A stretch of 40,117 nt of DNA, from the NCBI GenBank assembly GCA_030595925.1, contig JAUVLC010000007.1, positions 1 to 40,117 on the forward strand. Direction: 5' to 3'. Below are positions 6,090 through 30,728 of this stretch, in pieces. Position numbers and translations under genes: made by a program. The stretch comes from Clostridia bacterium. GTDB taxonomy: Bacteria; CBDUZB01; JAGLHV01. How positions within the stretch are numbered: position 1 is the first letter of the stretch; every line of letters starts with the position of its first letter. Under the pieces are notes generated by a model. The model was not told the DNA's origin. It did not search any database and was given only the letters and a program-made list of their open reading frames with translations.

Positions 6090-6119
6090 TTTTTTTGCCT
6101 CCTTTTTAAATTTTTTTTA

Positions 6120-6328
6120 AGAGTTCTGCAAAATAGTTTTTTATCTTCCTTGTCATTCCTGCTCCCTGCAAAAGCAGGGAATAAACTTGTCCCCGTGAAA
6201 ACGGGGAGCAGAAATCTATTGATATTTTAAGCACCTTATAGATTCCGCATCATCCGCCTGAGGCGGAGCAGAATGACCCGCCTTATAAACTGGCGAACAG
6301 GCAAAATATTGTATTTTGTAGAAGTCTA
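6120..6328. repeat. R3 element (MITE-like)
   Basis: Terminal inverted sequences AGAGTTCTGCAAAATAG and TATTTTGTAGAAGTCT. The body contains GTCATTCCTGCTCCCTGCAA, CCCCGTGAAAACGGGGAGCAG, and the inverted GGCGGAGCAGAATGAC. It lies inside the probable glnA leader, about 30 bases upstream of the start codon. A close relative is at 9498-9704. Confidence 0.85.
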
Positions 6329-6364
6329 ATTTTTTTTGGTTTTATTAACCAATAGTTTCTGAGC

Positions 6365-6411
6365 AGTCAAACGGCTATTTTATTTTGATTCCATAAAATA
6401 GCCGTTTGACT
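6365..6411. other. 18-bp perfect stem-loop in glnA leader
   Basis: Left arm AGTCAAACGGCTATTTTA (6365-6382) and right arm TAAAATAGCCGTTTGACT (6394-6411) pair perfectly around an 11-base loop. No U-run follows on either strand, so it is not a standard terminator. On the minus strand it starts within a few bases of the expected start of transcription from the sigma54 promoter at 6428-6443, placing it at the very 5' end of the glnA leader. Confidence 0.85.
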
Positions 6412-6427
6412 CTCTACTTTAACTTTA

Positions 6428-6443
6428 TGCAATTTGGTTGCCA
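6428..6443 (-). promoter_or_regulatory. Sigma54 (-24/-12) promoter for glnA
   Basis: The minus strand reads TGGCAACCAAATTGCA: the invariant GG and GC dinucleotides are exactly 10 bases apart, with TGGCA and TTGCA both perfect to consensus. The next gene downstream is glnA (start 6089). Consistent with control by the NtrC protein encoded at 25402-26841; no enhancer site was identified by eye. Confidence 0.85.
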
Positions 6444-6633
6444 ATATGCCTGCATTTTAGACAATTAGTAAAAGGAAATACCTATTAATCTCCATTTTCC
6501 ATCTATTTTACATTGATTTCTTATCTTTCACTGCAAAATTAATTTCTTTTCCCTTTTTAAAAGCTTCTGCTTAAAAATTGTGCATCAACTGCTCATTTTT
6601 AAGCTTTTTGTATAAAAAATAGTTTTTTCCATC

Positions 6634-6975: not shown

Positions 6976-7006
6976 TTTTAAACTCCTCCTCTTTTTAATT
7001 TAGTTT

Positions 7007-7240
7007 AGACTTCTGCAAAATAGCCTTTTATCTTTTCTGTCATTCCTGCGAACAGACTGTGTCCTAATTCTGATTTTTTGAAGCAATTGTAGTTGCCTCA
7101 TTTATGAGGCATTATTATTATCCGTTCCGCCCAATCATCCAAGTTAACGATAGACAAGTAAATTGGGCAACTACATTGATTATGACACAGTCTGGAAAGT
7201 AAGAATCCATTGATATTTTAAGCACATTTCACAGAACTCT
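7007..7240. repeat. R3 element interrupted by an R2 element
   Basis: R3 ends AGACTTCTGCAAAATAG (7007) and ACAGAACTCT (7240) enclose an R2 copy at 7053-7194 with ends CAGACTGTGTCCTAAT and ATTATGACACAGTCTGG. R3 body text is split at CATTCCTGCGAA and resumes with AAGAATCCATTGATATTTTA. Together with the hairpin at 7259-7294 it fills the 340-base amtB-glnK gap. Confidence 0.85.
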
Positions 7241-7314: not shown

Positions 7315-8691
7315 TTATTCCGTACTAAAAATTTGAAAACCGGAATAAGCTTCCATTCCATGTTCGCTAATATCCAATCCTTTTAATTGTTCTTCATCCG
7401 ACGCTCTCAGTCCTACTGTTTTCTTAATTATATAAAAAAGGAGCAAAGCTGTTCCAAAAACCCAGATAAATACTGATAATACACCGATTACCTGGATAAA
7501 GAACTGGGTTAATCCTCCTCCGAAGAAAAGACCGTTAACTGATCCCATCCCACTGGATTCACCATAAGAAGCCTGAGCAAATAATCCCACAGCAAGGGTT
7601 CCGAATGCGCCACAAACCCCGTGCACTGATATTGCCCCTGCAGGATCATCAACATGTAAAACTTTATCAAGAAATTCAACACTAAGCACTACCAATATTC
7701 CGGCTATTGCTCCGATAATTATTGCACTTAAAGGGGATACATTAGCACAACCGGCAGTAATGGCTACTAATCCGGCTAACGCTCCATTTAATGCCATACT
7801 GGTATCGGGTTTTCCAAATCTCTTCCATGCAGTAAACATCGCTGTAATGGCTGCGGCTGCGGCCGCCAAATTAGTAGTTACAGCAATCGTGGCTATACTT
7901 AAATTTGTTCCTGCGGTAGTACTTCCCGCATTAAAACCAAACCAGCCAAACCAGAGGATAAACACACCCAGTGCAGCTAAAGGAATATTATGTCCTGGTA
8001 TAGCATTAGAACCACCATCCTTATTATATTTTCCCAATCTGGGACCAAGGAGTAATGCTCCGGCTAAACCAGCCCAACCACCTACTGAATGAACTACAGT
8101 CGAACCGGCAAAATCCACCATTCCTTTACTACTCAACCAACCGCCTCCCCAAATCCAATGACCAACTACAGGATAAATTACCGCACAGATAAAAACCGAG
8201 TAGACTAAATAAGCAGGAAATTTTGTTCTTTCTGCCACTGCTCCGGAAACAATAGTTGCTGCTGTGGCGGCAAAAACTACCTGAAAAATCCAAAAGGCAT
8301 ACTGCCATAATCCATCCCCTGTTCCCGGATTACCGGCACTTAAGAAAAACCCATCAGTTCCAAAAAAGCCCATTGCACTGGCCCCAAACATTATACCAAA
8401 CCCAACTAACCAATAAGCCAGAGAACCTATACAGAAATCCATCAAATTCTTCATTAAAATATTAGCCGCATTTTTCGCTCTGGTAAAACCCGTTTCTACC
8501 ATAGCAAAACCCGGCTGCATAAAGAAAACCAAAAAAGCCGCTACTAATGTCCAAACCGTATCAATCGCTACAGCGTTAGTGGCTGCTGTCGCCTCTTCTT
8601 CCGCAAAAGCAATTAACGGTAAGATCAACCCTAAATACAAACTACTTTGTATTGTTACTCTAAACACTTTTTTTAACATTTTTTTAAACAT
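7315..8691 (-). CDS. amtB: Ammonium channel AmtB
   Basis: A 458-residue inner-membrane ammonium transporter with a cleavable-looking signal peptide (KKVFRVTIQSSLYLGLILPL ... AFAEEE). Eleven or so hydrophobic spans follow. The twin pore histidines are visible in GSTVVHSVGGWAGLAGAL and AISVHGVCGAFGTLAVGLFA, and QPGFAMVETGFTRAKNAANI is the usual first-helix signature. It imports ammonium for glutamine synthetase. It lies 26 bases downstream of the TorF-like gene and upstream of glnK; AmtB and GlnK-type PII proteins are functional partners. The ATG at 8691 has AGGAGAGG upstream; an in-frame ATG four codons later is a weaker alternative. Confidence 0.97.
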   Translation of the reverse strand: MFKKMLKKVFRVTIQSSLYLGLILPLIAFAEEEATAATNAVAIDTVWTLVAAFLVFFMQPGFAMVETGFTRAKNAANILMKNLMDFCIGSLAYWLVGFGIMFGASAMGFFGTDGFFLSAGNPGTGDGLWQYAFWIFQVVFAATAATIVSGAVAERTKFPAYLVYSVFICAVIYPVVGHWIWGGGWLSSKGMVDFAGSTVVHSVGGWAGLAGALLLGPRLGKYNKDGGSNAIPGHNIPLAALGVFILWFGWFGFNAGSTTAGTNLSIATIAVTTNLAAAAAAITAMFTAWKRFGKPDTSMALNGALAGLVAITAGCANVSPLSAIIIGAIAGILVVLSVEFLDKVLHVDDPAGAISVHGVCGAFGTLAVGLFAQASYGESSGMGSVNGLFFGGGLTQFFIQVIGVLSVFIWVFGTALLLFYIIKKTVGLRASDEEQLKGLDISEHGMEAYSGFQIFSTE

Positions 8692-8717: not shown

Positions 8718-9467
8718 TTAAAACCCAAAAGCTACAACTAAACCACCATAAAATTCTTCTTCCTGATTACCATCGGTAACTTCTTCCATATCTCCGAAAG
8801 GCATTGAATAATTAATACTGGGGGTAAAGGAACATTTATCGCTTAAGGGAATTCCTAAGCTTGCTCCCAGGGCAACATCGCCTCCGTCACCCGCAATAAA
8901 AAGTTCACTGTTAGAACCAATATGTCCACTTAAATCAAGTGTAATCGGCCCCTCACCTAAAGCAAGACTATGACTTAAATCCAATACTATATAGCTTCCA
9001 TCTCCGCCTCCGGAATCTTCCTCACTATAATCCTGATACCAGGTTAAACTGGGTGACAACAGGACATCTAATCCTCCACCAAAATAAATTTCCTTACTAA
9101 ATCCATCACCTATAGGAAAATCATAATAAATATGTCCTACCGACAAACTAAATTTATCTGCACTATAAGTATAATCGATGGAATAATCAACCTCATCAGA
9201 AGAACAATAGTCCTCAGCATCCATATCAAAACTCCCCCATACACTGGCGGTAAAACCATACGCACTTATATATAGTCCTGACTGCATTACCGGATCATCA
9301 TCCAGAAGAAACCCTCTCCAAAGATATTTAGAATTTATAGCAACATCTGAACTTACCTCAAAGGCTGAACCGATTAAGACCCCTTCTCCCTCTGCATACA
9401 CACGACTCATTCCAACACCACTAACTAAAAAACAAGCTACTAAAAAAACCATTAATCTTTTAACCAT
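8718..9467 (-). CDS. TorF-like outer-membrane beta-barrel protein
   Basis: A 249-residue protein with an N-terminal signal peptide ending near VYAEGEG, then many alternating hydrophobic/polar beta strands and a terminal Phe (LVVAFGF), the usual outer-membrane assembly signal. DVAINSKYLWRGFLLDDDP near the mature N terminus, and the overall size, match the TorF family of putative porins, often found beside amtB/PII genes. It probably helps small nitrogen compounds cross the outer membrane (family-based inference). It shows the host has an outer membrane. Start: ATG after GGAGGGGG. The operon order PII-torF-amtB places it under the sigma54 promoter at 10112-10127. Confidence 0.8.
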   Translation of the reverse strand: MVKRLMVFLVACFLVSGVGMSRVYAEGEGVLIGSAFEVSSDVAINSKYLWRGFLLDDDPVMQSGLYISAYGFTASVWGSFDMDAEDYCSSDEVDYSIDYTYSADKFSLSVGHIYYDFPIGDGFSKEIYFGGGLDVLLSPSLTWYQDYSEEDSGGGDGSYIVLDLSHSLALGEGPITLDLSGHIGSNSELFIAGDGGDVALGASLGIPLSDKCSFTPSINYSMPFGDMEEVTDGNQEEEFYGGLVVAFGF

Positions 9468-9704: not shown

Positions 9705-10025
9705 TTAAAGTAACGCCTTTTCCTGTCGTTCTCCAGTCCTTATCCGGACAGCATCATCTATTGGTAAAACAATAATTTTACCATCTCCTAATTTCCCTGT
9801 ACCACAAATATCAATCATTACCGCAATTAATTCTTCTACCTGTTCATCTGTCGCATATATTTCGATTTTAGTCTTGGGTAAAATCAGATACGCTTCCGGC
9901 CGGGTAGTTTCTCTTCCAAATCCTTTTACTTCGGTAATAGTCATTCCACCCACACCCGTTTCCCGTAAAGATTCTTCTAATTCCTTCAACTTCTCGGCAC
10001 GGATGATACACTCAATTTTTTTCAT
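9705..10025 (-). CDS. PII-family protein with shortened T-loop
   Basis: A 106-residue PII protein starting MKKIECIIRAEKLKELEESL. The B-loop (GTGKLGDGKIIVLP) and C-loop (AVRIRTGERQ) are intact, so nucleotide binding is expected. The T-loop is short: only about ten residues (ETTRPEAYLI) lie between GFGR and LPKTKIEIY, where GlnB/GlnK proteins have about seventeen, and the usual modified Tyr is missing. Its targets are therefore probably not those of classical GlnB. The ATG at 10025 is preferred because an in-frame GTG four codons earlier overlaps the GGAGG ribosome-binding site. First gene of the torF-amtB operon, about 90 bases downstream of a sigma54 promoter. Confidence 0.9.
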   Translation of the reverse strand: MKKIECIIRAEKLKELEESLRETGVGGMTITEVKGFGRETTRPEAYLILPKTKIEIYATDEQVEELIAVMIDICGTGKLGDGKIIVLPIDDAVRIRTGERQEKALL

Positions 10026-10111
10026 TTTAAATCTCACCTCCCTTTATATTAGAATATCAGGTAAAATATCTAACATCCCCCTTAACCTGAAGCTTCTCTA
10101 TTACTCTCCTA

Positions 10112-10127
10112 CGCAATTATATTGCCA
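10112..10127 (-). promoter_or_regulatory. Sigma54 (-24/-12) promoter for the PII-torF-amtB operon
   Basis: The minus strand reads TGGCAATATAATTGCG, with GG and GC exactly 10 bases apart, matching TGGCA-N6-TTGC. Expected transcription start is near 10100, giving a leader of about 75 nt. The site and the DNA beyond it are duplicated from the nifH promoter region (25024-25039). Confidence 0.85.
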
Positions 10128-10227
10128 AACCATTAAAAACAAAAAAAAACACCCGGATTTAAAACTAAACCCAAGTGGTTTTCTTACTCTCCCGTCATTC
10201 CTGCAAACATAACTCTAATTTTTATGT

Positions 10228-10293
10228 GGTAGCCGCAGGCTTTAGCCTGCGTAATTTCCCCGTCGATAACGCAGGCTAAAGCCTGCGACTACC
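10228..10293. repeat. R1 palindromic repeat
   Basis: GGTAGCCGCAGGCTTTAGCC ... GCCTGCGACTACC palindrome, part of the duplicated segment. Confidence 0.9.
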
Positions 10294-10376
10294 AATAAGG
10301 AAATTGTGACAGGGAATAAAACTTCAACAATAATCTCACAAACTGTTTTCTTTATGCTTTGTTTTTAACACTTTGA

Positions 10377-10418
10377 TTAAATTTTAACATCTTTATCTAT
10401 TTTAATCTTGTTTTTTTC
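10377..10418 (-). pseudogene. Remnant of an ntrC 3' end
   Basis: Thirteen codons plus stop on the minus strand read EKNKIKIDKDVKI, against EKYEIKIDKDVKI at the end of the intact NtrC protein (25402-26841). The next bases diverge. It is only the tail of a duplicated ntrC copy and has no start or function of its own. Confidence 0.8.
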
Positions 10419-10463
10419 TGCCTGTCCTGCGAACAAATTGTGGTACAATTAATATTTTTATGT

Positions 10464-11904: not shown

Positions 11905-12681
11905 TTATTCATTTACAAGATGGCATAGGGAAATTCTATCCCTTAATAATTCAATTTGCCCCGGCTCAGTTTTATCCTCTTGATGACAATCGCAATATTT
12001 TTTCTCTATTATCATCCGGCAATTGTCTTTTTTAAATATATTCTCCGGAAAATCTATCTGAACAATCCGGCCATTATCTAACACGACAACCCTGTCAGCC
12101 AAGGCAAAGGCTTCTTCAAAACAATGCGTAACATATATAGTAACAATTCCCAACTTCCTCTGGAGTTTGTGAATCTCCGTTCGTAAATATCTGGCAGTAT
12201 TAAAATCCAAACTGTTTAACGGTTCATCAAAAAGCATAATTTTAGGAGACGGAGCAACGGCTCTCGCCAAAGCAACCCTCTGTTTTTCCCCACCACTTAA
12301 ATCTTTGGGATATCGCTCAGCGAGATGTTCCATTTCCATTAATTTCAACAACTCATCTACCCTTGATTCCACTTCATCTTTGAGTTTGCCCTGCACACGA
12401 AGTCCATAGGCTATATTTAATTTAACATTTAGATGAGGAAATAAGATTAAATTTTGAAAAAGATATCCTGTTTTTCTCCGGAAAACAGGAAGTTTATCTA
12501 CCGAAACGTCGTCAAACAACACCGAACCTTCATATTCAGTGAGTCCTGCAATAACATTAAGTAAAGTGGTCTTTCCCGCACCCGTTGGGCCCCAAAGAAC
12601 GAGAAATTCTTTATCAAATATTTCCAGGTTTATTTCCTGACATATAAAATTTTTAATGTTTTTTAATTTAATATTAGGCAT
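11905..12681 (-). CDS. ABC transporter ATP-binding protein (NitT/TauT or molybdate type)
   Basis: A 258-residue importer ATPase: Walker A GPTGAGKTT (31-39), Q-loop YLFQNLILFPHLN, signature LSGGEKQR (127-134), Walker B KIMLFDEP and switch His in YVTHCFEEA. It energises the permease encoded just upstream (8-base overlap), and the lipoprotein gene is before that. The C-terminal tail carries an unusual CDCHQED segment. Sequence style fits both NitT/TauT and molybdate/sulfate importers. The position directly after the nif genes suggests import of something nitrogenase needs, but the substrate cannot be read from sequence. Confidence 0.92.
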   Translation of the reverse strand: MPNIKLKNIKNFICQEINLEIFDKEFLVLWGPTGAGKTTLLNVIAGLTEYEGSVLFDDVSVDKLPVFRRKTGYLFQNLILFPHLNVKLNIAYGLRVQGKLKDEVESRVDELLKLMEMEHLAERYPKDLSGGEKQRVALARAVAPSPKIMLFDEPLNSLDFNTARYLRTEIHKLQRKLGIVTIYVTHCFEEAFALADRVVVLDNGRIVQIDFPENIFKKDNCRMIIEKKYCDCHQEDKTEPGQIELLRDRISLCHLVNE

Positions 12682-13435
12682 ACTGTCTCCATTTATGGGT
12701 CAATTTGTATTCAAGATAAATAAAAAACCTCTCAAAGATTAAACACATTAATGCTAAAACAATCAGGCATACGATAATTATGTCTATTCGCAGCAAACTC
12801 TCTGCCCTCATCAATAAAGCCCCAATACCGGTGGGAATAGCCACCATTTCAGCAGCAATTATAACTCTCCAGGCCATCCCGGCTTCTAATCTTAAACCTG
12901 TAAATATGTTAGGTAATGCCAATGGTATAACTATTGTGGTTAAAATCTTCCATTCCGATGCCCCAAGACTTTGTGCTGCTTTAATAAATTCTTTATCTAC
13001 CCCTTTAATACCGGTAATTGTATTATAGAGCACAGGAAAAAATGAACAAATAAAAATGATTAATATCGGTAATATTTCACCTATTCCAAACCAGAGCATT
13101 AAAATCGGCAGCCAACCAAGAGCGGGTATAGGATAAAACAGACTAAGTATGGGATGGGCTATTTTATCTATCAACCTTTCATATCCCATTAGAATTCCTA
13201 TTGCTATACCGGCTGTAGAACCGGCAAAAAGGCCAATTAGAACTCTAAAGAGACTGCTCAAAAAATTATCTCCTAAGACCCCGTTAGCTGTTAAATGATA
13301 AAATTCCTGAATCACGACAGTAAAAGGGGGAAAAAAGAAATGTCCGGGAACAAATTTTAACCGGACAATAATTTCCCAGATTAATAAAAAAACCAATACC
13401 GGAATTAAATTATAAACAAACTTTATTTTTTTCAT
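12674..13435 (-). CDS. ABC transporter permease (NitT/TauT family)
   Basis: A 253-residue inner-membrane protein with about six hydrophobic spans and the binding-protein-dependent permease EAA loop (AAQSLGASEWKILTTIVIPL). LLIWEIIVRLKFVPGHFFFP near the N terminus and SLFYPIPALGWLPILMLWFG are typical of SsuC/TauC-like permeases. It overlaps the lipoprotein gene by an ATGA junction and the ATPase gene by eight bases, so the three are translationally coupled. Confidence 0.93.
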   Translation of the reverse strand: MKKIKFVYNLIPVLVFLLIWEIIVRLKFVPGHFFFPPFTVVIQEFYHLTANGVLGDNFLSSLFRVLIGLFAGSTAGIAIGILMGYERLIDKIAHPILSLFYPIPALGWLPILMLWFGIGEILPILIIFICSFFPVLYNTITGIKGVDKEFIKAAQSLGASEWKILTTIVIPLALPNIFTGLRLEAGMAWRVIIAAEMVAIPTGIGALLMRAESLLRIDIIIVCLIVLALMCLIFERFFIYLEYKLTHKWRQYA

Positions 13436-14445
13436 TCGAGAAACCTCAAATCAATAAAATCTTCCGCCTTAAATGATTCTTTGATATATTCTAATTCAAC
13501 ACAAGTATCTATCCCCTTCTGTATCTCCTGTGGATTAATATCAATAGTATTAACCAACCTTGTAGTCAAAGATTTCAAAATAGAACCTGGAGTAATTATA
13601 AGCTTGGAAGTCATATCTATCGCTTTAACCGGAAATATCTTTTTCCCGGCAATCTGTAATCCTTTGGCAACAATCTCCGCAGCTTCTTGGGGATGTTCAT
13701 TAATAAATTGTGTCGCTCGCTTTGTAACCCTTACCAATTTTTCAACTATAACAGGATGTTCATCTAAAAGTTCTTCTCTAACAACCAGGACACTACCCTG
13801 CATATCAGGACAAATGTCTTCAGCCGTTAAAAATACTTTAAGCCCTAATTCCTCTGCCATACTCGGAAACTGTTCACAGATAAAAGCCGCGTCCAATTGC
13901 CCCATTTTAAGCGCAAGAAGCAGTCTTTGTGGATTCATCCTTCTAACTTTTTTTAGTATTTGTTTTTTATCTAAATGATATTTTTCGAGCATCTTATGTA
14001 AAAGCAAATCAAGGGGACTGCCTTCACTGGTGCACCCGATACGAATTCCGGGCTCTTTCAAATCATCAATAGTTTTTACTTTAGCCGGATTAACTACAAA
14101 ACCATAACCGTATTTATGAACTCCGGCGACAATCTTTATCGGTACATTAGCATTAGCCCTGGCATTTATTGCCGGGATTAAACAAATATAAGCAGCATCA
14201 ATATCACCGTTTGACAGAGCAGCAGCAAGAGCCATGCCGGTTATATAATTTTCATAACTGGTAACAGTTAATCCCTCTTCTTTATACCACCCCTTTTGAT
14301 TTGCTATATGGGCACCGGCAGAATGGGTAGTAAATTCTACAGCTATTCGAATAGGCTTTCCGGTTGTTTTACTCTTTTTATTACAACCGGATATTGCTGC
14401 TAAAAACATTCCTCCTAAAATTACGAACAAAATGATTTTTTTCAT
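13432..14445 (-). CDS. ABC transporter substrate-binding lipoprotein (NMT1/SsuA-like)
   Basis: A 337-residue exported lipoprotein: signal peptide MKKIILFVILGGMFLAAISG with lipobox Cys21 (AISGC). The mature part has the NMT1/THI5/SsuA-type periplasmic-binding fold: PIRIAVEFTTHSAGAHIANQ, KGWYKEEGLTV, GDIDAAYICLIPAINARANA, and LKMGQLDAAFICEQFPSMAE. It delivers ligand to the permease/ATPase downstream. Ligands for this family include sulfonates, nitrate, thiamine precursors and aromatic acids, so the annotation should stay general. Start: ATG after CAGGAAT. Its operon follows the DUF364-type gene after an R1 palindrome. Confidence 0.92.
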   Translation of the reverse strand: MKKIILFVILGGMFLAAISGCNKKSKTTGKPIRIAVEFTTHSAGAHIANQKGWYKEEGLTVTSYENYITGMALAAALSNGDIDAAYICLIPAINARANANVPIKIVAGVHKYGYGFVVNPAKVKTIDDLKEPGIRIGCTSEGSPLDLLLHKMLEKYHLDKKQILKKVRRMNPQRLLLALKMGQLDAAFICEQFPSMAEELGLKVFLTAEDICPDMQGSVLVVREELLDEHPVIVEKLVRVTKRATQFINEHPQEAAEIVAKGLQIAGKKIFPVKAIDMTSKLIITPGSILKSLTTRLVNTIDINPQEIQKGIDTCVELEYIKESFKAEDFIDLRFLE

Positions 14446-21483: not shown

Positions 21484-23103
21484 TTATTCAACAACAAATG
21501 TAGCAGTAATTTCCGGTTCGTTTTCCCACGGAGCTTTAATCATCCGCCATACTTTTGTGTTTACCGTTCGATCCATTTCCCTATAGAAATTAATCGCCCC
21601 TTTAAAAGCTGCAAATGGGCCGCCATAATCGTAACTATGCAATTGTTTCATAGGAATACCTCTTTTCTGCACAGTATATTTTTCTTTAATACCTGCACAA
21701 AATACTGCCGGTTTGTATTTATCAATCAGTTTTTCCGTTTCATATTGACTGATATCGTCAATAACCACCGAATTTGGCTCCATCTCAGACATCATCCCTT
21801 CGTATTTACTTATTTCCATACCTTTTTTCTTAAGTGCATCCAATTCCTGCTCAGTTTTTCTTAAACGATATCTCTTCGGATCCTTTTCTACTACAACTTC
21901 CTCGATATTTCTACTGTCGGCATCAACCTTAATCTGAGGTAAAACCTTCCGTCCCTCATAATCATCCCTGTGGGCAAACTCATATCCGGCAGCAACTGTC
22001 TTCATTCCGATTTCGCTAAAAAGATACTGATAATGATGAGCACGAGAGCCCCCTACAAAAATCATGGCCAGTTTTCCCCTGGTCCGTGGCTCTACATCTT
22101 TACGAGCTTCTAAAACAGCAGGCATTTCCTCCCCGATTACTTTTTCCACCTGTTTAATAAGTTCTTTATCCCCAAAATACTGGGCAATCTTCCTCAAAGA
22201 TTTTGCGGTAGCCTCTGCTCCGATAAAATTTATTTTTAGCCATGGTATTCCGAATTTCTTTTCCATCATTTTCGCTACATAATTAATTGACCGGTGACAC
22301 ATAATAAGATTAAGATCTGCAGTGTGCGAGTTGGCAAAGTGATCAACACTTGAGTTTCCGCTATAAGTCGAAATTAAGGTAAGACCGCATCGTTTGAATA
22401 AATCCTCAATTAAAAAAGCATCACCACCGATATTATATTCCCCCAGTAAATTAATTTTAAACTTCCCTTCTTTTACTGTATCATCAAGGCCGACGACATG
22501 TTTAAAAATCTGATTATTAGCAATATGGTGACCGGCTGACTGACTCACCCCTTTATACCCTTCGCAAGAGAAACCAAAGATATTAATACCGAGTTTTTCT
22601 TTCATTTCCCGGGCAACAGCGTGAATATCATCACCGATTAGACCAACCGGACAGGTAGCAAATATTCCTATCATTTTAGGATGAAAAATATCGTAAGCTT
22701 CCTGAATAGCTTCTCTGAGTTTCTTCTCTCCGCCAAAGACAATATTATCATCCTGCATATCCGTTGAGAAACAATAGGGCATAAAATTGTCCCCGTCGGG
22801 ACCGGGCCTTGTCTGATTACGCCGTGTAGCCCAACTATAAAAACCACAACCGATAGGACCGTGAGTAAGATTTATAATATCCCGCGTAGGACCCAGTACT
22901 ACCCCTTTACATCCGGCATAACAGCAACCGCGTTGAGTAATAATTCCGGGAACAGTTCTTATGTTAGCCTGGATTTCCTGTTCTGTCTTCGGATCATTAA
23001 GAACTATAGATTTACTTCTTTTCCGAGCAACCTTCGAAGGATATTTTTTAAGTATATCCTCTTGTATTCCACATGGTTCTGGTAATTTTGTATCACTTTT
23101 CAT
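21484..23103 (-). CDS. nifD: Nitrogenase MoFe protein alpha chain
   Basis: A 539-residue alpha subunit. P-cluster cysteines: RGCCYAGCKGVVLGPTRDII, THGPIGCGFYSW and IFATCPVGLIGDDI. FeMo-co ligands: Cys in LNLIMCHRSINYVAKMMEKK and His in KQLHSYDYGGPFAAFKGAIN. It reduces N2 at FeMo-co with electrons from NifH. Compared with Azotobacter-type NifD it has an extra charged segment after EFAHRDDYEGRKVLPQIKVD, as in clostridial, chlorobial and methanogen forms. The ATG at 23103 is chosen, with GGGAGAAG upstream; an in-frame TTG at 23121 overlaps the nifI2 stop and is unlikely. Confidence 0.97.
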   Translation of the reverse strand: MKSDTKLPEPCGIQEDILKKYPSKVARKRSKSIVLNDPKTEQEIQANIRTVPGIITQRGCCYAGCKGVVLGPTRDIINLTHGPIGCGFYSWATRRNQTRPGPDGDNFMPYCFSTDMQDDNIVFGGEKKLREAIQEAYDIFHPKMIGIFATCPVGLIGDDIHAVAREMKEKLGINIFGFSCEGYKGVSQSAGHHIANNQIFKHVVGLDDTVKEGKFKINLLGEYNIGGDAFLIEDLFKRCGLTLISTYSGNSSVDHFANSHTADLNLIMCHRSINYVAKMMEKKFGIPWLKINFIGAEATAKSLRKIAQYFGDKELIKQVEKVIGEEMPAVLEARKDVEPRTRGKLAMIFVGGSRAHHYQYLFSEIGMKTVAAGYEFAHRDDYEGRKVLPQIKVDADSRNIEEVVVEKDPKRYRLRKTEQELDALKKKGMEISKYEGMMSEMEPNSVVIDDISQYETEKLIDKYKPAVFCAGIKEKYTVQKRGIPMKQLHSYDYGGPFAAFKGAINFYREMDRTVNTKVWRMIKAPWENEPEITATFVVE

Positions 23104-23113
23104 AATCTTCTCC

Positions 23114-23491
23114 CTAATCAAGAATTTTATTTCCCGTTTCGCCTGTCCTTACCCTTACCGCATCCATAACCGGTGACACAAATATCTTTCCGTCTCCTGC
23201 ATTCCCGGTTTGATTTACCTCAATTATTGTTTTAACCACTATATCAACTTTATCATCAGGCAAAACAACAAAAAGAAGTCTTTTAGCTACCAATCTGGGA
23301 CCCTGTCCGAGTTGACTTATTGCCTCCTGGTATCCATCTCCGGCACCGTGAAGTATCCTGTAATCAACCAGTCCTTTCCCTCTGCCCAAAACCTTCCCGG
23401 TAGCAGTGAAAGATGCTAAGCCTAATTCTGAAAGTGCTTTTTTAGTACTATTAATCTTATTTATACGTATTATTGCCATTACTTCTTTCAT
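23114..23491 (-). CDS. nifI2: Nitrogenase switch-off PII protein NifI2
   Basis: A 125-residue PII-family protein with the long NifI2-type T-loop: GRGKGLVDYRILHGAGDGYQ, EAISQLGQGPRLVAKR, then LLFVVLPDDKVD. B-loop GNAGDGKIFVSP and C-loop VRVRTGETG are intact. With NifI1 it binds NifDK and blocks its contact with NifH when ammonium or low 2-oxoglutarate is sensed (established for methanogen NifI proteins). It ends 10 bases before nifD. Start after AAAGGAGA. Confidence 0.95.
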   Translation of the reverse strand: MKEVMAIIRINKINSTKKALSELGLASFTATGKVLGRGKGLVDYRILHGAGDGYQEAISQLGQGPRLVAKRLLFVVLPDDKVDIVVKTIIEVNQTGNAGDGKIFVSPVMDAVRVRTGETGNKILD

Positions 23492-24148: not shown

Positions 24149-25009
<861 letters not shown>

Positions 25010-25023
25010 TCACTTTTATAACA

Positions 25024-25039
25024 CGCAACTTCTTTGCCA
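25024..25039 (-). promoter_or_regulatory. Sigma54 (-24/-12) promoter for nifH operon
   Basis: The minus strand reads TGGCAAAGAAGTTGCG; GG and GC are exactly 10 bases apart. It lies between the ntrC terminator and nifH. Consistent with activation by the adjacent NtrC-type protein; no separate NifA gene is in the window and no clear TGT-N10-ACA enhancer was found. Confidence 0.88.
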
Positions 25040-25056
25040 AATTATTTAAACAATAA

Positions 25057-25094
25057 AAAACCACTTAAGTTTTAAACTAAACCTAAGTGGTTTT
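25057..25094 (-). terminator. Intrinsic terminator of ntrC
   Basis: AAAACCACTT (25057-25066) pairs with AAGTGGTTTT (25085-25094), extended by inner AAGTTTTAAACT pairing. On the minus strand the stem is followed by a run of T. It lies between ntrC and the nifH promoter, insulating the two transcripts. Confidence 0.75.
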
Positions 25095-25157
25095 CTCACT
25101 TTTCTCCCATTCCTGCGAACATAACTCTAATTTTTCTGTGGTATCTTATTTTTCTGT

Positions 25158-25311
25158 GGTAGCCGCAGGCTTTAGCCTGCGTTCTCATCGGAGATTTTCC
25201 TCTGTCTTACTTTTCTGTCATTCCCCAACAATAATATTTCTCTGTGGTAGCCGCAGGCTTTAGCCTGCGTAATTTCCCCGTCGATAACGCAGGCTAAAGT
25301 CTGCGACTACC
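25158..25311. repeat. R1 repeats downstream of ntrC
   Basis: A half copy GGTAGCCGCAGGCTTTAGCC at 25158-25182 and a full palindrome at 25246-25311 (ending AAAGTCTGCGACTACC), separated by a CATTCCCCAACA spacer. This is the main part of the 428-base ntrC-nifH gap and belongs to the segment duplicated at 10112-10419. Confidence 0.85.
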
Positions 25312-25401
25312 AATAAGGAAATTGTGACAGGGCATAAAACTTCAACAATAATCTCACAAACTGTTTTTTTTATTCTTTATGCTTTATTTTTAACACTTTG
25401 A

Positions 25402-26841
25402 TTAAATTTTAACATCTTTATCTATTTTAATCTCGTATTTTTCTATCTTGTTACGCAACGTATTCCTATTTATTCCTAAAATTTGAGCTGTCTTTGATTG
25501 ATTACCTTTGGCTTCTTTAAGAGCACGAATTATTAATCCCTTTTCTACAATGCTCATAATTTCTTCTTTATATTCCCCGGGGTTATTTAAAATTTCGCTA
25601 TAAAGCTCATCTAACAATTTCTCCAAACGCTTCTCACTTTTTTTTCCTTTTATTTCTATTAAGTTTCCTTCTTTTAAATCAAGTGACAACTCACCGGGTA
25701 AAATATGCACCCCTTTACAAAGAACACACGCTCTTTTGATTACATTTTCCAATTCCCTCACATTTCCCGGCCAACTATAGTTAGTGAGCATTTTCATTGT
25801 TTTCGAATTTATATCTCTAATATCTTTTTCTAATTCGCTGTTAAACTTTTTTAAAAAATACCGGGCTAAAAGAGGAATATCTTTTTTTCGATTTTCCAAA
25901 GATGGTAAATTTATAGCAACTACATTTAGCCGATAATACAAATCTTTTCTAAATTTGCTCTTTTCAATTGCTTTTTCTAAATCCGTATTGGTAGCAACAA
26001 TCAGTCTTATATCTATCTTTATTGTTTCATTTCCCCCTAAGCGGGTAATTTCTTTTTCCTGTAATACCCTTAAGATTTTTGCCTGGGTAGCAACCGCCAT
26101 ATCCCCAATTTCATCTAAAAATATAGTTCCACCATTACATTGTTCAAATTTCCCAATTCGGCGAACCTGAGCATCAGTAAAAGCACCTTTTTCATAGCCA
26201 AACAATTCACTTTCCAATAATGCCTCCGGAATTGCCGCGCAATTTATGGCTAAAAACGGTTGATTATTTCTTTTTGAATGCTGGTAAATAGCTCTGGCAA
26301 TTAATTCTTTTCCTGTCCCGCTCTCCCCTCGCAATAAAACCGTAACATCTTTTTCTGCCACCTGCCCTACCAATTTATAAACTTCCTGCATTTGAACAGA
26401 ATTACCAATAATATATTCTGTGCCAACATCTATTTCCTCTTCTTTTTTCTCAAAAGACACACTGCTTTTCATTAATTGATTTGTCTGTAAGCCTTTTTCT
26501 ACCAATTCCCACATTTTAGGAATATCAAAAGGCTTTAAAACATAATCAAAAGCACCAAATTTCATTGCTTCAATGGCAGTCTTGGTTGTTCCGTAAGCAG
26601 TCATCATAATGACCAACATTTTAGGATTAATTTTTTTAATTTTCTGCAAAGTATCTAACCCGCTCATCCCCGCCATTCTGACATCCATTAAGACCAAGTC
26701 TATTTCTTCCCGTTGAATTATATCTATAGCCTCCTCACCTTTCTTTGCTTCCAAAACTTTAATTCCTTTTTCTTCCAATGTTCTGCGTAAGGAATAGCGA
26801 ATACTCCTTTCGTCATCAACAACTAAGATGGTATCCTTCAT
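25402..26841 (-). CDS. NtrC-type sigma54-dependent response regulator
   Basis: A 479-residue activator. Receiver domain 1-120 with phosphoacceptor Asp53 (LVLMDVRMAG) and Lys103 (VLKPF). AAA+ domain with Walker A GESGTGKE (172-179), the sigma54-contacting GAFTDA (219-224) and Walker B GGTIFLDEIGD. Fis-type HTH at the C terminus (KGNQSKTAQILGINRNTLRN). It should activate the sigma54 promoters found at 25024, 10112 and 6428. No histidine kinase gene is nearby. With no GAF domain it is NtrC- rather than NifA-like. ATG after AAGGAGA. Its last 13 codons and downstream DNA are duplicated at 10377-10419. Confidence 0.93.
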   Translation of the reverse strand: MKDTILVVDDERSIRYSLRRTLEEKGIKVLEAKKGEEAIDIIQREEIDLVLMDVRMAGMSGLDTLQKIKKINPKMLVIMMTAYGTTKTAIEAMKFGAFDYVLKPFDIPKMWELVEKGLQTNQLMKSSVSFEKKEEEIDVGTEYIIGNSVQMQEVYKLVGQVAEKDVTVLLRGESGTGKELIARAIYQHSKRNNQPFLAINCAAIPEALLESELFGYEKGAFTDAQVRRIGKFEQCNGGTIFLDEIGDMAVATQAKILRVLQEKEITRLGGNETIKIDIRLIVATNTDLEKAIEKSKFRKDLYYRLNVVAINLPSLENRKKDIPLLARYFLKKFNSELEKDIRDINSKTMKMLTNYSWPGNVRELENVIKRACVLCKGVHILPGELSLDLKEGNLIEIKGKKSEKRLEKLLDELYSEILNNPGEYKEEIMSIVEKGLIIRALKEAKGNQSKTAQILGINRNTLRNKIEKYEIKIDKDVKI

Positions 26842-27067: not shown

Positions 27068-29422
27068 TTATACTTTTGCTTCACCTATACTTTTCAATAG
27101 TGAGTTGTATTGATCGGAATCTTTTTCTTTAATTTTAGTTAAAACATAATTTGCAAGTTTTTTAATTTCCGGTATTTCAATCGGCTTCATGCTTCTGTCA
27201 AAATGCTCTTCAAGATGTGATAGTTCATTATAGATTCTATTTGTTAAAATGGCAGAAGTTTTATCATCACCAAAAAACAATGTAACTTTTTCATATGTTG
27301 TTTTATTGTCTGGATATTTATAAAACAAATATGCCTCTAAAAATTTTCTAAGATTGTTTCCAAAATTATAATAATACCCATATTCTTGATTCTTCACTTT
27401 AGATGAACATTTATATATCTGATGAAACAGATAATTAAATTCGGTAGTATAATTTTTTAAGTGGTCAGGCATTAATTGAATATAGCTTTTTTTTTCACTT
27501 CCCTCTATAATAAAATATTCGGTATTATTTCTAGGTTTGCTCAGACATTTCAAATATTTTAAAAAATCCAAATTATGGGTTGATACAAACAATTGTTTGT
27601 ACTTATATACATTCGAATTGTCAGTGTTTTTATTGGGCTTAGCTATTATACTTTCAATCAAACTAAAAACAAAGAATATATGGTTGATATCTAGGCTGGA
27701 AACAGGGTCATCTATCCAAATAATAAGCTCTTTATCTTTTGTTTCGACATCATCGAGTTTTGCCATAAAATAGCATAAGGATACAAGATTACATTCGCCT
27801 TCGCTCAAATTATAAGCAACTTCATTTTCTCTTTTGATTACAAACTTTAAACCTGAATCGTCTTCCTCTGGAACTAACCTTAATCCTTTGTGTCCAAAAA
27901 AATGATTAAGGTATTCATTTATTTTTTTTGCCCCTTTTCGCTCATCCTTTAATTGAGTTAAAAGATTTTCTATTTCAGATTCGATGTATTTTATTTGATT
28001 TTCAATTTCTTCTTTTTCTTTAATAAGTTTTTTTTCTTCACCATCCAACTTTCTTATATTTAGCAGTTCGTTATTATAGCCAATGGCTTTTATGAATTTT
28101 GCAACTTCATTTAATCGGAGATCTTTTCTGGCTGAATCCTGGTCATCTTTTAGGGTTTTTGTCTTATTATTGTTTTTATCTATGACCTTATTGAAATCTT
28201 CATGCAAATTTTCAATTGTTTTAGAATTGTCGTCAATATTACGCAATACCCTTGTTTTAAATATATCGTTTTCTCTGGCTTCTAATTCATTTATTAATTC
28301 ATCAAGATTTGAATCGTATTGTTTTATTGTCGCATCCCAATCTGTTTTATTTCTATCAAATTGGTCGCTTATCGTAGAATAGAATTGATTTTTATTAAGC
28401 TTTACCAATTCTTTTATACTGTTTTTTTCTTGCTGAATATTAGAGAGATGATTTTCAATTTGTTTCCGCAGTTCTTCGGATTCCTTGCTGAAATGAGTAT
28501 CCAACTTTCCCCATAAATCATCTGGTAATTCCGAGCCGCAAAAAGCACAGGTTTTTCTTTTGTCTCTGTGGTGTGGCATTCCCTGCCTTACCCATTCTTG
28601 TAAAACAGCATCATTTAATAATTCCTGAATGGACTTTTTGGGTTTTATTTCCTTTAATAAGATTTCTTTACTTCTTTCGAAAAAAGAATTGAATTTTGGA
28701 GAATATACAGGTAATAAAGGAGTATCTTCTTTGGCTTTTTCATTTAGAAGCTTTTTCTTGAAATCAATTTCTTTATCCGTTAAAAGCTGTTCCGGTTTCT
28801 CCTCAATATCTTGCTTTATATCGATGATATTATAATTAACATCAGAATATATCGAATTTTGCTTTATTTCATCATTAGCTTTACGCCGTAATTTCTCATT
28901 AAGATCATTTTCTCGGTTGTCTTTTTCTTCTTTCTTCTTTTCGCACCTTTCTTTTTTGATTTTTAAATCATAGCGAAGCCCTTTTTTCTTTTCTTCGTTT
29001 CCAAGGATATCATTTTTCTCTTTGATTTCTTTTTTCATTTCAACATTTTTATCACCTATTATGGCAAATGGCTTTATGCTGCCGTCGTCTTCATCCATTA
29101 ACCATTCTAAATTATCTTTTACGAAATCTTTATTATAAACTCGTATGTGGTATGGATTATTGCCCAGATTATCTTGATTCAACGTCTTATTTCCCGTGTG
29201 TGAAAGTTCAAATTTTGAATCAGGATATTTTTTATGCAAAAGTCCTTTTTCAAAACTTCTGAGAATGCGCGATAATGTAGTTTTGCCGGAATAATTACGG
29301 CCATATACGATATTCACTTTCTTGAACTCAACTATATTATTCCCGTTATCTCGAACTGATTTGTCCCAGTCAAAATCGGTAAAAACAGCAAAATCTTTGA
29401 TGGATTTTATCTTCTTAATCAA
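27068..29422 (-). CDS. RloC-like anticodon nuclease (AAA_13 ATPase with zinc-hook motif)
   Basis: A 784-residue ABC/SMC-like ATPase: Walker A GRNYSGKTT (41-49), long charged coiled coil with CAFC at 292-295 (zinc hook as in RloC/Rad50), second coiled coil, signature NLSEGECNL (near 540), Walker B LIIWIDDPVSSLD (near 570) and STHN (614). The C-terminal region has Arg692-x3-Glu696 (NNLRKFLEAYL) and His736 (NELSHLEEH), matching the Arg-Glu-His tRNase triad described for PrrC/RloC. RloC cuts tRNA anticodon loops when host DNA is under attack. Start is TTG at 29422 with GGAGG ten bases upstream. Its upstream partner gene is truncated. Could be another AAA_13 protein if the triad is not catalytic. 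Confidence 0.7.
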   Translation of the reverse strand: MIKKIKSIKDFAVFTDFDWDKSVRDNGNNIVEFKKVNIVYGRNYSGKTTLSRILRSFEKGLLHKKYPDSKFELSHTGNKTLNQDNLGNNPYHIRVYNKDFVKDNLEWLMDEDDGSIKPFAIIGDKNVEMKKEIKEKNDILGNEEKKKGLRYDLKIKKERCEKKKEEKDNRENDLNEKLRRKANDEIKQNSIYSDVNYNIIDIKQDIEEKPEQLLTDKEIDFKKKLLNEKAKEDTPLLPVYSPKFNSFFERSKEILLKEIKPKKSIQELLNDAVLQEWVRQGMPHHRDKRKTCAFCGSELPDDLWGKLDTHFSKESEELRKQIENHLSNIQQEKNSIKELVKLNKNQFYSTISDQFDRNKTDWDATIKQYDSNLDELINELEARENDIFKTRVLRNIDDNSKTIENLHEDFNKVIDKNNNKTKTLKDDQDSARKDLRLNEVAKFIKAIGYNNELLNIRKLDGEEKKLIKEKEEIENQIKYIESEIENLLTQLKDERKGAKKINEYLNHFFGHKGLRLVPEEDDSGLKFVIKRENEVAYNLSEGECNLVSLCYFMAKLDDVETKDKELIIWIDDPVSSLDINHIFFVFSLIESIIAKPNKNTDNSNVYKYKQLFVSTHNLDFLKYLKCLSKPRNNTEYFIIEGSEKKSYIQLMPDHLKNYTTEFNYLFHQIYKCSSKVKNQEYGYYYNFGNNLRKFLEAYLFYKYPDNKTTYEKVTLFFGDDKTSAILTNRIYNELSHLEEHFDRSMKPIEIPEIKKLANYVLTKIKEKDSDQYNSLLKSIGEAKV

Positions 29423-29729: not shown

Positions 29730-30677
29730 TCAATTATTAGTTTTTCGGGGAAAAATCAATCCATGAGCATTATTAAATGACACAGCATATCTTTCTAATC
29801 CTCTAACACCACCTTCATCTATATGAAAAAGAAACGCAAGCCAACCATTGATATGGCTAACCAATTTTGGCTTATCCTCTTCCTTAACTTTATTTCTTAA
29901 AAGTTGGTATATTTTAGCCCGAAGAACTCTTTTTTCCTTTTTACCAATACCAACCCCTTCATCACTAATTATTAATCCTGTAACTTTTTTTCTTGTACTT
30001 TTCCCCATAAAGCGAGTTTTTCTATCATTCAAAGTAAATCCTTCCTCATAAATTATTCTTTCAACAAACTTTTTAATCCTTAATAGCCTTAAAAAACTTA
30101 ATGAGGAAAATGTAAAATCATCAGCATAACGTGTGTATGTCACATTATGCTTCCCTACATAACCAGCAAGCCGTCTATCAAGCCGAATACAGATTATGTT
30201 TGAAATGATTGGAGAGGTAACCCCTCCTTGAGGTAAAACCCCTCCACATGTGCACAATGATGTTAATATATGAGCAACATGATCGTTATAACCAATGGTT
30301 TTAAAAACTGTATAAACCATAGGATATTTTATTGACGGAAAGAAATCGTCTAGATCCATGCAAAGAATATATTGATTATCTTTATGCGCTAAAGCATTTT
30401 CACGAATTCCTCTTTTTTCTCGAAAACCCATTGCCACGTCAGACAATTGAACTTTCCGCAAAATATTAGACATAATCCATGATTGAACCGCTTTCATTTC
30501 CTTATTTGGACAATGGATTGTTCTTTGCCCTCCATTTTTCTTATCAATTGAAAAAGAAACATAATAATAATTATTAAATTTAGAAAGTCTATATAGCAAT
30601 TCCTTTGACAAATGCAAATGATCTGATAAATCCTGCAAATTATTTATAATAGGCAATCCAAATAATTGTAATCTCAT
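29730..30677 (-). CDS. Retron-type reverse transcriptase
   Basis: About 315 residues. RT motifs in order: IDKKNGGQRTIHCPNKEMK, the retron hallmark NAxxH (RENALAHKDNQYILCMDLDD), LPQGGVTSPIISN, catalytic YADD (TRYADDFTFSS) and the second retron hallmark VTG (KKVTGLIISD). It should copy a structured ncRNA into msDNA that holds a toxic effector in check. The ATG at 30677 is used; a GTG at 30701 with a weak GAG upstream would add eight residues. It follows a NDT-like effector gene by about 107-130 bases, an interval holding a long hairpin. Small compared with group II intron RTs and without maturase or endonuclease domains. Confidence 0.9.
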   Translation of the reverse strand: MRLQLFGLPIINNLQDLSDHLHLSKELLYRLSKFNNYYYVSFSIDKKNGGQRTIHCPNKEMKAVQSWIMSNILRKVQLSDVAMGFREKRGIRENALAHKDNQYILCMDLDDFFPSIKYPMVYTVFKTIGYNDHVAHILTSLCTCGGVLPQGGVTSPIISNIICIRLDRRLAGYVGKHNVTYTRYADDFTFSSLSFLRLLRIKKFVERIIYEEGFTLNDRKTRFMGKSTRKKVTGLIISDEGVGIGKKEKRVLRAKIYQLLRNKVKEEDKPKLVSHINGWLAFLFHIDEGGVRGLERYAVSFNNAHGLIFPRKTNN

Positions 30678-30728
30678 AATTTTTATCAAGAAGAGAGACA
30701 CTAAAACTTACTCTAAAGCACACTAATT

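Follow-up and report, generated by a model that had tools for sequence, protein, structure and literature searches.

A mosaic promoter segment in front of both nifH and glnB-torF-amtB in a Clostridia bacterium

Introduction

In the 40,117-nucleotide stretch of DNA analysed here (the window; contig JAUVLC010000007.1), the ammonium operon glnB-torF-amtB is preceded by the last codons of an ntrC gene of which nothing else is present, and the same segment is found again between a complete ntrC and nifH. How did one promoter segment come to stand in front of both operons? The original prediction offered two answers, that a whole ntrC copy had been lost before glnB or that a promoter cassette had been duplicated, and suggested that the unique DNA of the segment could hold a shared enhancer or a small RNA. 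We compared the genome containing the window (G000) with two others (G001 and G002), which are the three genomes of this phylum included here and belong to one genus.

Results

All genes of the two loci lie on the minus strand. The ammonium operon begins with glnB, encoding P-II (9705-10037; PF00543), followed by a torF-like porin gene (8718-9467; PF09694 above its cut-off, TIGR02001 below its own) and the ammonium transporter gene amtB (7315-8691; PF00909, TIGR00836). At the second locus, nifH (24149-24973; TIGR01287 above cut-off) follows a gene for a response regulator and sigma54 activator (25402-26841) with Response_reg, Sigma54_activat and HTH_8 domains. Since this protein reaches 504.7 bits against the NtrC equivalog TIGR01818, below the curated cut-off of 558.6, we call it NtrC-family only, despite its receiver, AAA+ and Fis domains. 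The relatives that one scan of genome contigs gave for it are at most 56% identical (51% over the full length), and none was recognisable as belonging to this phylum. Upstream of ntrC lie an AAA_13 gene (27068-29422, minus strand) and a retron St85-family reverse transcriptase (29730-30701, minus strand; NF038233 above cut-off), which together may form a defence locus.

The two copies of the segment, A before glnB (10112-10419) and B between ntrC and nifH (25024-25444), are collinear direct repeats. On the minus strand both show a single order: the ntrC 3' end, unique DNA, the R1 palindrome, a terminator hairpin, a sigma54 site and the operon. In copy A the ntrC 3' end is a truncated tail of 13 codons plus stop (10377-10419), with no gene behind it and followed by repeat DNA, and matches the ntrC 3' end at 41/43 positions (95%). 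The unique DNA (10295-10376 in A, 25313-25401 in B, both minus strand) is identical at 80/82 positions (98%), apart from a 7-bp indel deleted in A; together with the tail it is 97% identical. R1 (10223-10294 and 25240-25312) is identical at 70/72 positions (97%) and its flank at 33/35 (94%), while the terminator plus sigma54 block falls to 55/73 (75%). The copies measure 308 and 421 bp because B carries one additional R1-type insertion (25137-25236, about 100 bp), seen as a gap in the alignment of copy A. The predicted common order of elements was thus confirmed by the alignment, and what the copies share is not R1 alone, as the flanking unique DNA and the ntrC tail are common to both; the unique DNA, predicted at about 120 bases, comes to some 82-89 bp. 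A promoter segment is therefore common to the nifH and glnB-torF-amtB operons.

R1 belongs to a dispersed repeat family. When a 331-bp segment was searched against its own genome, the only extended matches were copies A and B, the remaining 85 or so hits consisting of R1 and its flank. Another genomic copy of R1 reaches 96% over 68 bp, so that the identity of R1 by itself is uninformative on copying. For a 26-mer at the ntrC stop and 3' UTR, the window holds exactly two occurrences, and chance would give 0.

Searching the window for TGGCA-N6-TTGC without mismatch gave only three sites, each preceding a nitrogen operon (glnA, glnB or nifH); with up to one mismatch, 11 were found against 8 expected, which is no rarer than chance. 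The site of glnB-torF-amtB, TGGCAATATAATTGC (10113-10127, minus strand), is kept in G002 as TGGCAATATAGTTGC, and that of nifH is TGGCAAAGAAGTTGC (25025-25039, minus strand); both have the GG and GC elements at the correct spacing, and they differ in the spacer. The glnA site (6429-6443, minus strand), also a perfect match to the pattern and conserved in G002, stands without the shared segment. Given these differences, the sites do not establish the common sigma54 control predicted for nifH and glnB-torF-amtB. Just downstream of it, at 6331-6410, an inverted repeat (CGGCTATTTTA...TAAAATAGCCG) kept in G002 may form a leader structure; upstream of it, at 6524-6620, a block nearly invariant in both species is a second enhancer candidate, unlike the island described below for nifH and glnB. 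Two rpoN-like genes (PF04552 above cut-off) were found in G000, and no rpoN match in the G001 and G002 assemblies.

The hairpins of copy A (10150-10178, minus strand; -14.9 kcal/mol with flank) and of copy B after ntrC (25061-25090, minus strand; -19.5 kcal/mol with flank) and their counterpart in G002 differ in their stem bases, yet all three fold and all are followed by T runs. They fit terminators for ntrC and for the GNAT gene that would insulate the promoters downstream.

On G002 contig C106, the end of an ABC permease gene, an ATPase gene and a GNAT gene are followed by glnB-torF-amtB, a gene order matching that of G000. The G002 spacer between GNAT and glnB contains an island of 48-62 bp, a terminator and a sigma54 site; R1 is absent from it. 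The island (10347-10394 in the window, minus strand) is 94% identical over 48 bp to G002:C106:1897-1944, which precedes the glnB orthologue there, and 92% over 62 bp (E 1.6e-18). Under neutrality, 45 of 48 bases would be kept with a probability of about 0.003, before correction for choosing the best stretch. It corresponds to the end of ntrC and the DNA that follows, around the ntrC stop, and in G002 about 134 bp separate it from the sigma54 core downstream of it; in G000 the distance is greater because R1 has inserted.

Upstream of the island the reading frame is not kept in G002, which makes an enhancer a better fit than coding sequence, and the island appears to be the best enhancer candidate in the segment. 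The suggestion of an enhancer in the unique DNA is supported insofar as G002 keeps part of that DNA, which is compatible with a cis-regulatory element; for the suggested small RNA, no match to Rfam was found in the window at gathering thresholds. No motif common to the island and the block kept before glnA stood out from what shuffled sequences give. A NifA-type TGT-N10-ACA noticed by eye in the island, with one mismatch, was dropped, as such a motif is expected often by chance.

The same G002 spacer bears on whether a second full ntrC formerly preceded glnB and was lost except for its tail. Copy A does keep 13 ntrC codons and the stop, as such a loss would leave. However, in G002 only about 60 bp separate the GNAT stop from the island, with no ntrC-like coding recognisable beyond the last six codons, and no ntrC orthologue lies beside glnB in the three genomes. 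We consider the former presence of an ntrC gene at this place unlikely, and the loss proposed originally was not borne out, nor does the segment require it as an explanation.

Neither the G001 nor the G002 assembly, fragmented into about 400 contigs, yielded an orthologue of nifH or ntrC, and hence an ntrC-nifH copy. Given this fragmentation, and since nifD and nifK run off contig ends, the absence most likely represents an assembly gap and not a loss. In the G001 assembly (94% complete) no glnB, torF, amtB or GNAT gene was found. An old duplication is consequently deduced solely from the G002 glnB copy and the G000 nifH copy.

We then placed the divergence between copies A and B on the scale of that between species. 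Differences amount to 4/125 in the unique DNA plus tail and 18/73 in the terminator plus sigma54 block (Fisher p = 7e-6), and the changepoint between the two classes, at 10161, was reached by 0 of 5000 permutations. At fourfold sites of four orthologous genes, G000 and G002 differ at 86/384 positions (77.6% identical). The unique DNA of A and B is far closer than this (p = 6e-8), so its copying postdates the G000/G002 split, and the terminator plus sigma54 block has diverged to the fourfold level (p = 0.65). Both differences within the ntrC tail alter an amino acid, as expected for unused coding DNA. The three terminator copies differ from one another at 14, 17 and 10 of 60 positions, which does not single out a closest pair.

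Given these two identity classes, the repeat cannot have arisen by one copying with even change thereafter, and the prediction of one copying event for the whole cassette was not supported. In a variant of it, all 308 bp would have been duplicated recently and in one step, from ntrC-nifH to glnB, after which the terminator and sigma54 part changed faster. It would account for the collinearity of the copies and the high identity of their unique DNA. Against it, the terminator, sigma54 site and island are already in place at the G002 glnB locus. Selection, moreover, should have had the opposite effect: the promoter part would be expected to be the more constrained, yet it is the most diverged. 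Such a duplication is disfavoured, and we regard it as improbable.

The direct repeats bracket about 15 kb, from nifH through the GNAT gene, on one strand, with exact runs of up to 57 bp. In G001 we found fdx-nifB-nifN-nifE-nifK and in G002 nifD-nifK-nifE, in the same order as in G000 and 94-97% identical; judging from this collinearity, nif is not a recent arrival in this genus. That the repeats are scars left when single-crossover integration or a tandem duplication put the nif block between ntrC and glnB is suggested by their bracketing position but very unlikely, since with nif throughout the three congeners the insertion would predate the genus, whereas the 97% identical part of the repeat is recent, and no ntrC-glnB junction lacking nif was found. 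Within this region, NifD (21484-23121) has 545 aa against a 466-position model, the match being split around residue 390 in some families; an ABC transporter beside nif (11905-14445) is similar to systems of the sulfonate/SaoAPX type, its scores for molybdate transporters being below cut-off.

Discussion

The reading that we favour, and hold to be rather probable, is that of an old shared promoter module, present before the split from G002, and a recent copying from R1 to the ntrC tail, most simply by gene conversion from ntrC-nifH to glnB. A module of island, terminator and sigma54 site would have fronted both nifH and glnB-torF-amtB before G000 and G002 separated. R1 would then have inserted into one copy, and later conversion would have run from about the R1 flank through the ntrC tail; it would have brought in R1 and 13 ntrC codons, each copy retaining its own diverged terminator and sigma54 part. 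The pair shows one feature expected of gene conversion, namely a sharp change of identity inside paralogues that are closer than species divergence predicts. Repeat elements have moved in the G000 lineage elsewhere too, as seen from repeat DNA absent from G002 in the glnA leader, between sigma54 site and gene (6110-6331), and in the amtB-glnB2 spacer (6985-7240). As to direction, 25 bp of ntrC coding sequence in copy A (10395-10419) are missing from the G002 glnB copy, which fits copy B as the donor. Conversion of these 25 bp, beyond the homology visible in G002, needs homology that was formerly present or another copying mechanism.

Sigma54 RNA polymerase would start both operons, with an NtrC-type activator bound to the island, most likely the adjacent NtrC-family protein, and the terminator would shield each promoter against read-through from the upstream gene. 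Near-identical control DNA may in this way hold the nitrogen-fixation and ammonium-uptake genes under similar control. One can go further and suppose that an enhancer at the ntrC stop and 3' UTR serves nifH, that conversion homogenises the copy of the ammonium operon and so couples fixation to uptake, and that the repeats could drop nif; we offer this larger scheme as a speculative possibility and not as a probable one. Short direct repeats in E. coli are described as recombining and deleting the DNA between them even without RecA (PMC5426353), and by analogy recombination between the present repeats could in principle delete the nif block; our literature search gave no direct precedent for nif excision by repeats or for promoter duplication. 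If the island is indeed an enhancer, the locus would show how, in a bacterium of a barely sampled phylum, one signal is wired to both nitrogen fixation and ammonium uptake, and would be a bacterial case of regulatory DNA homogenised between operons by gene conversion.

The elements of this locus have counterparts in well-described systems. R1 resembles REP-type palindromes (PMC8266576, PMC12306157) in being short, extragenic and present in many copies, in a genome that contains Y1 transposase genes, and differs from them in that it adjoins none of the six Y1_Tnp loci of G000 that we tested, so that these loci gave no link to a mobiliser. As in the NtrC/sigma54 promoters of Proteobacteria (glnA, glnK-amtB, nif), P-II-amtB and nif operons with -24/-12 sites occur together with an NtrC-type activator gene nearby, and a candidate enhancer lies at least about 130 bp upstream; here, in contrast, two promoters share a homologous module, and the candidate enhancer could not be assigned a known NtrC or NifA consensus site. 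Gene conversion and concerted evolution of E. coli rRNA operons (PMC8022953) likewise yield copies within a genome that are closer than species divergence predicts, with a sharp tract boundary, although the tract in our case is a short intergenic regulatory region and not a multicopy gene. The processes are thus of known kinds, and this locus is a clean example of them.
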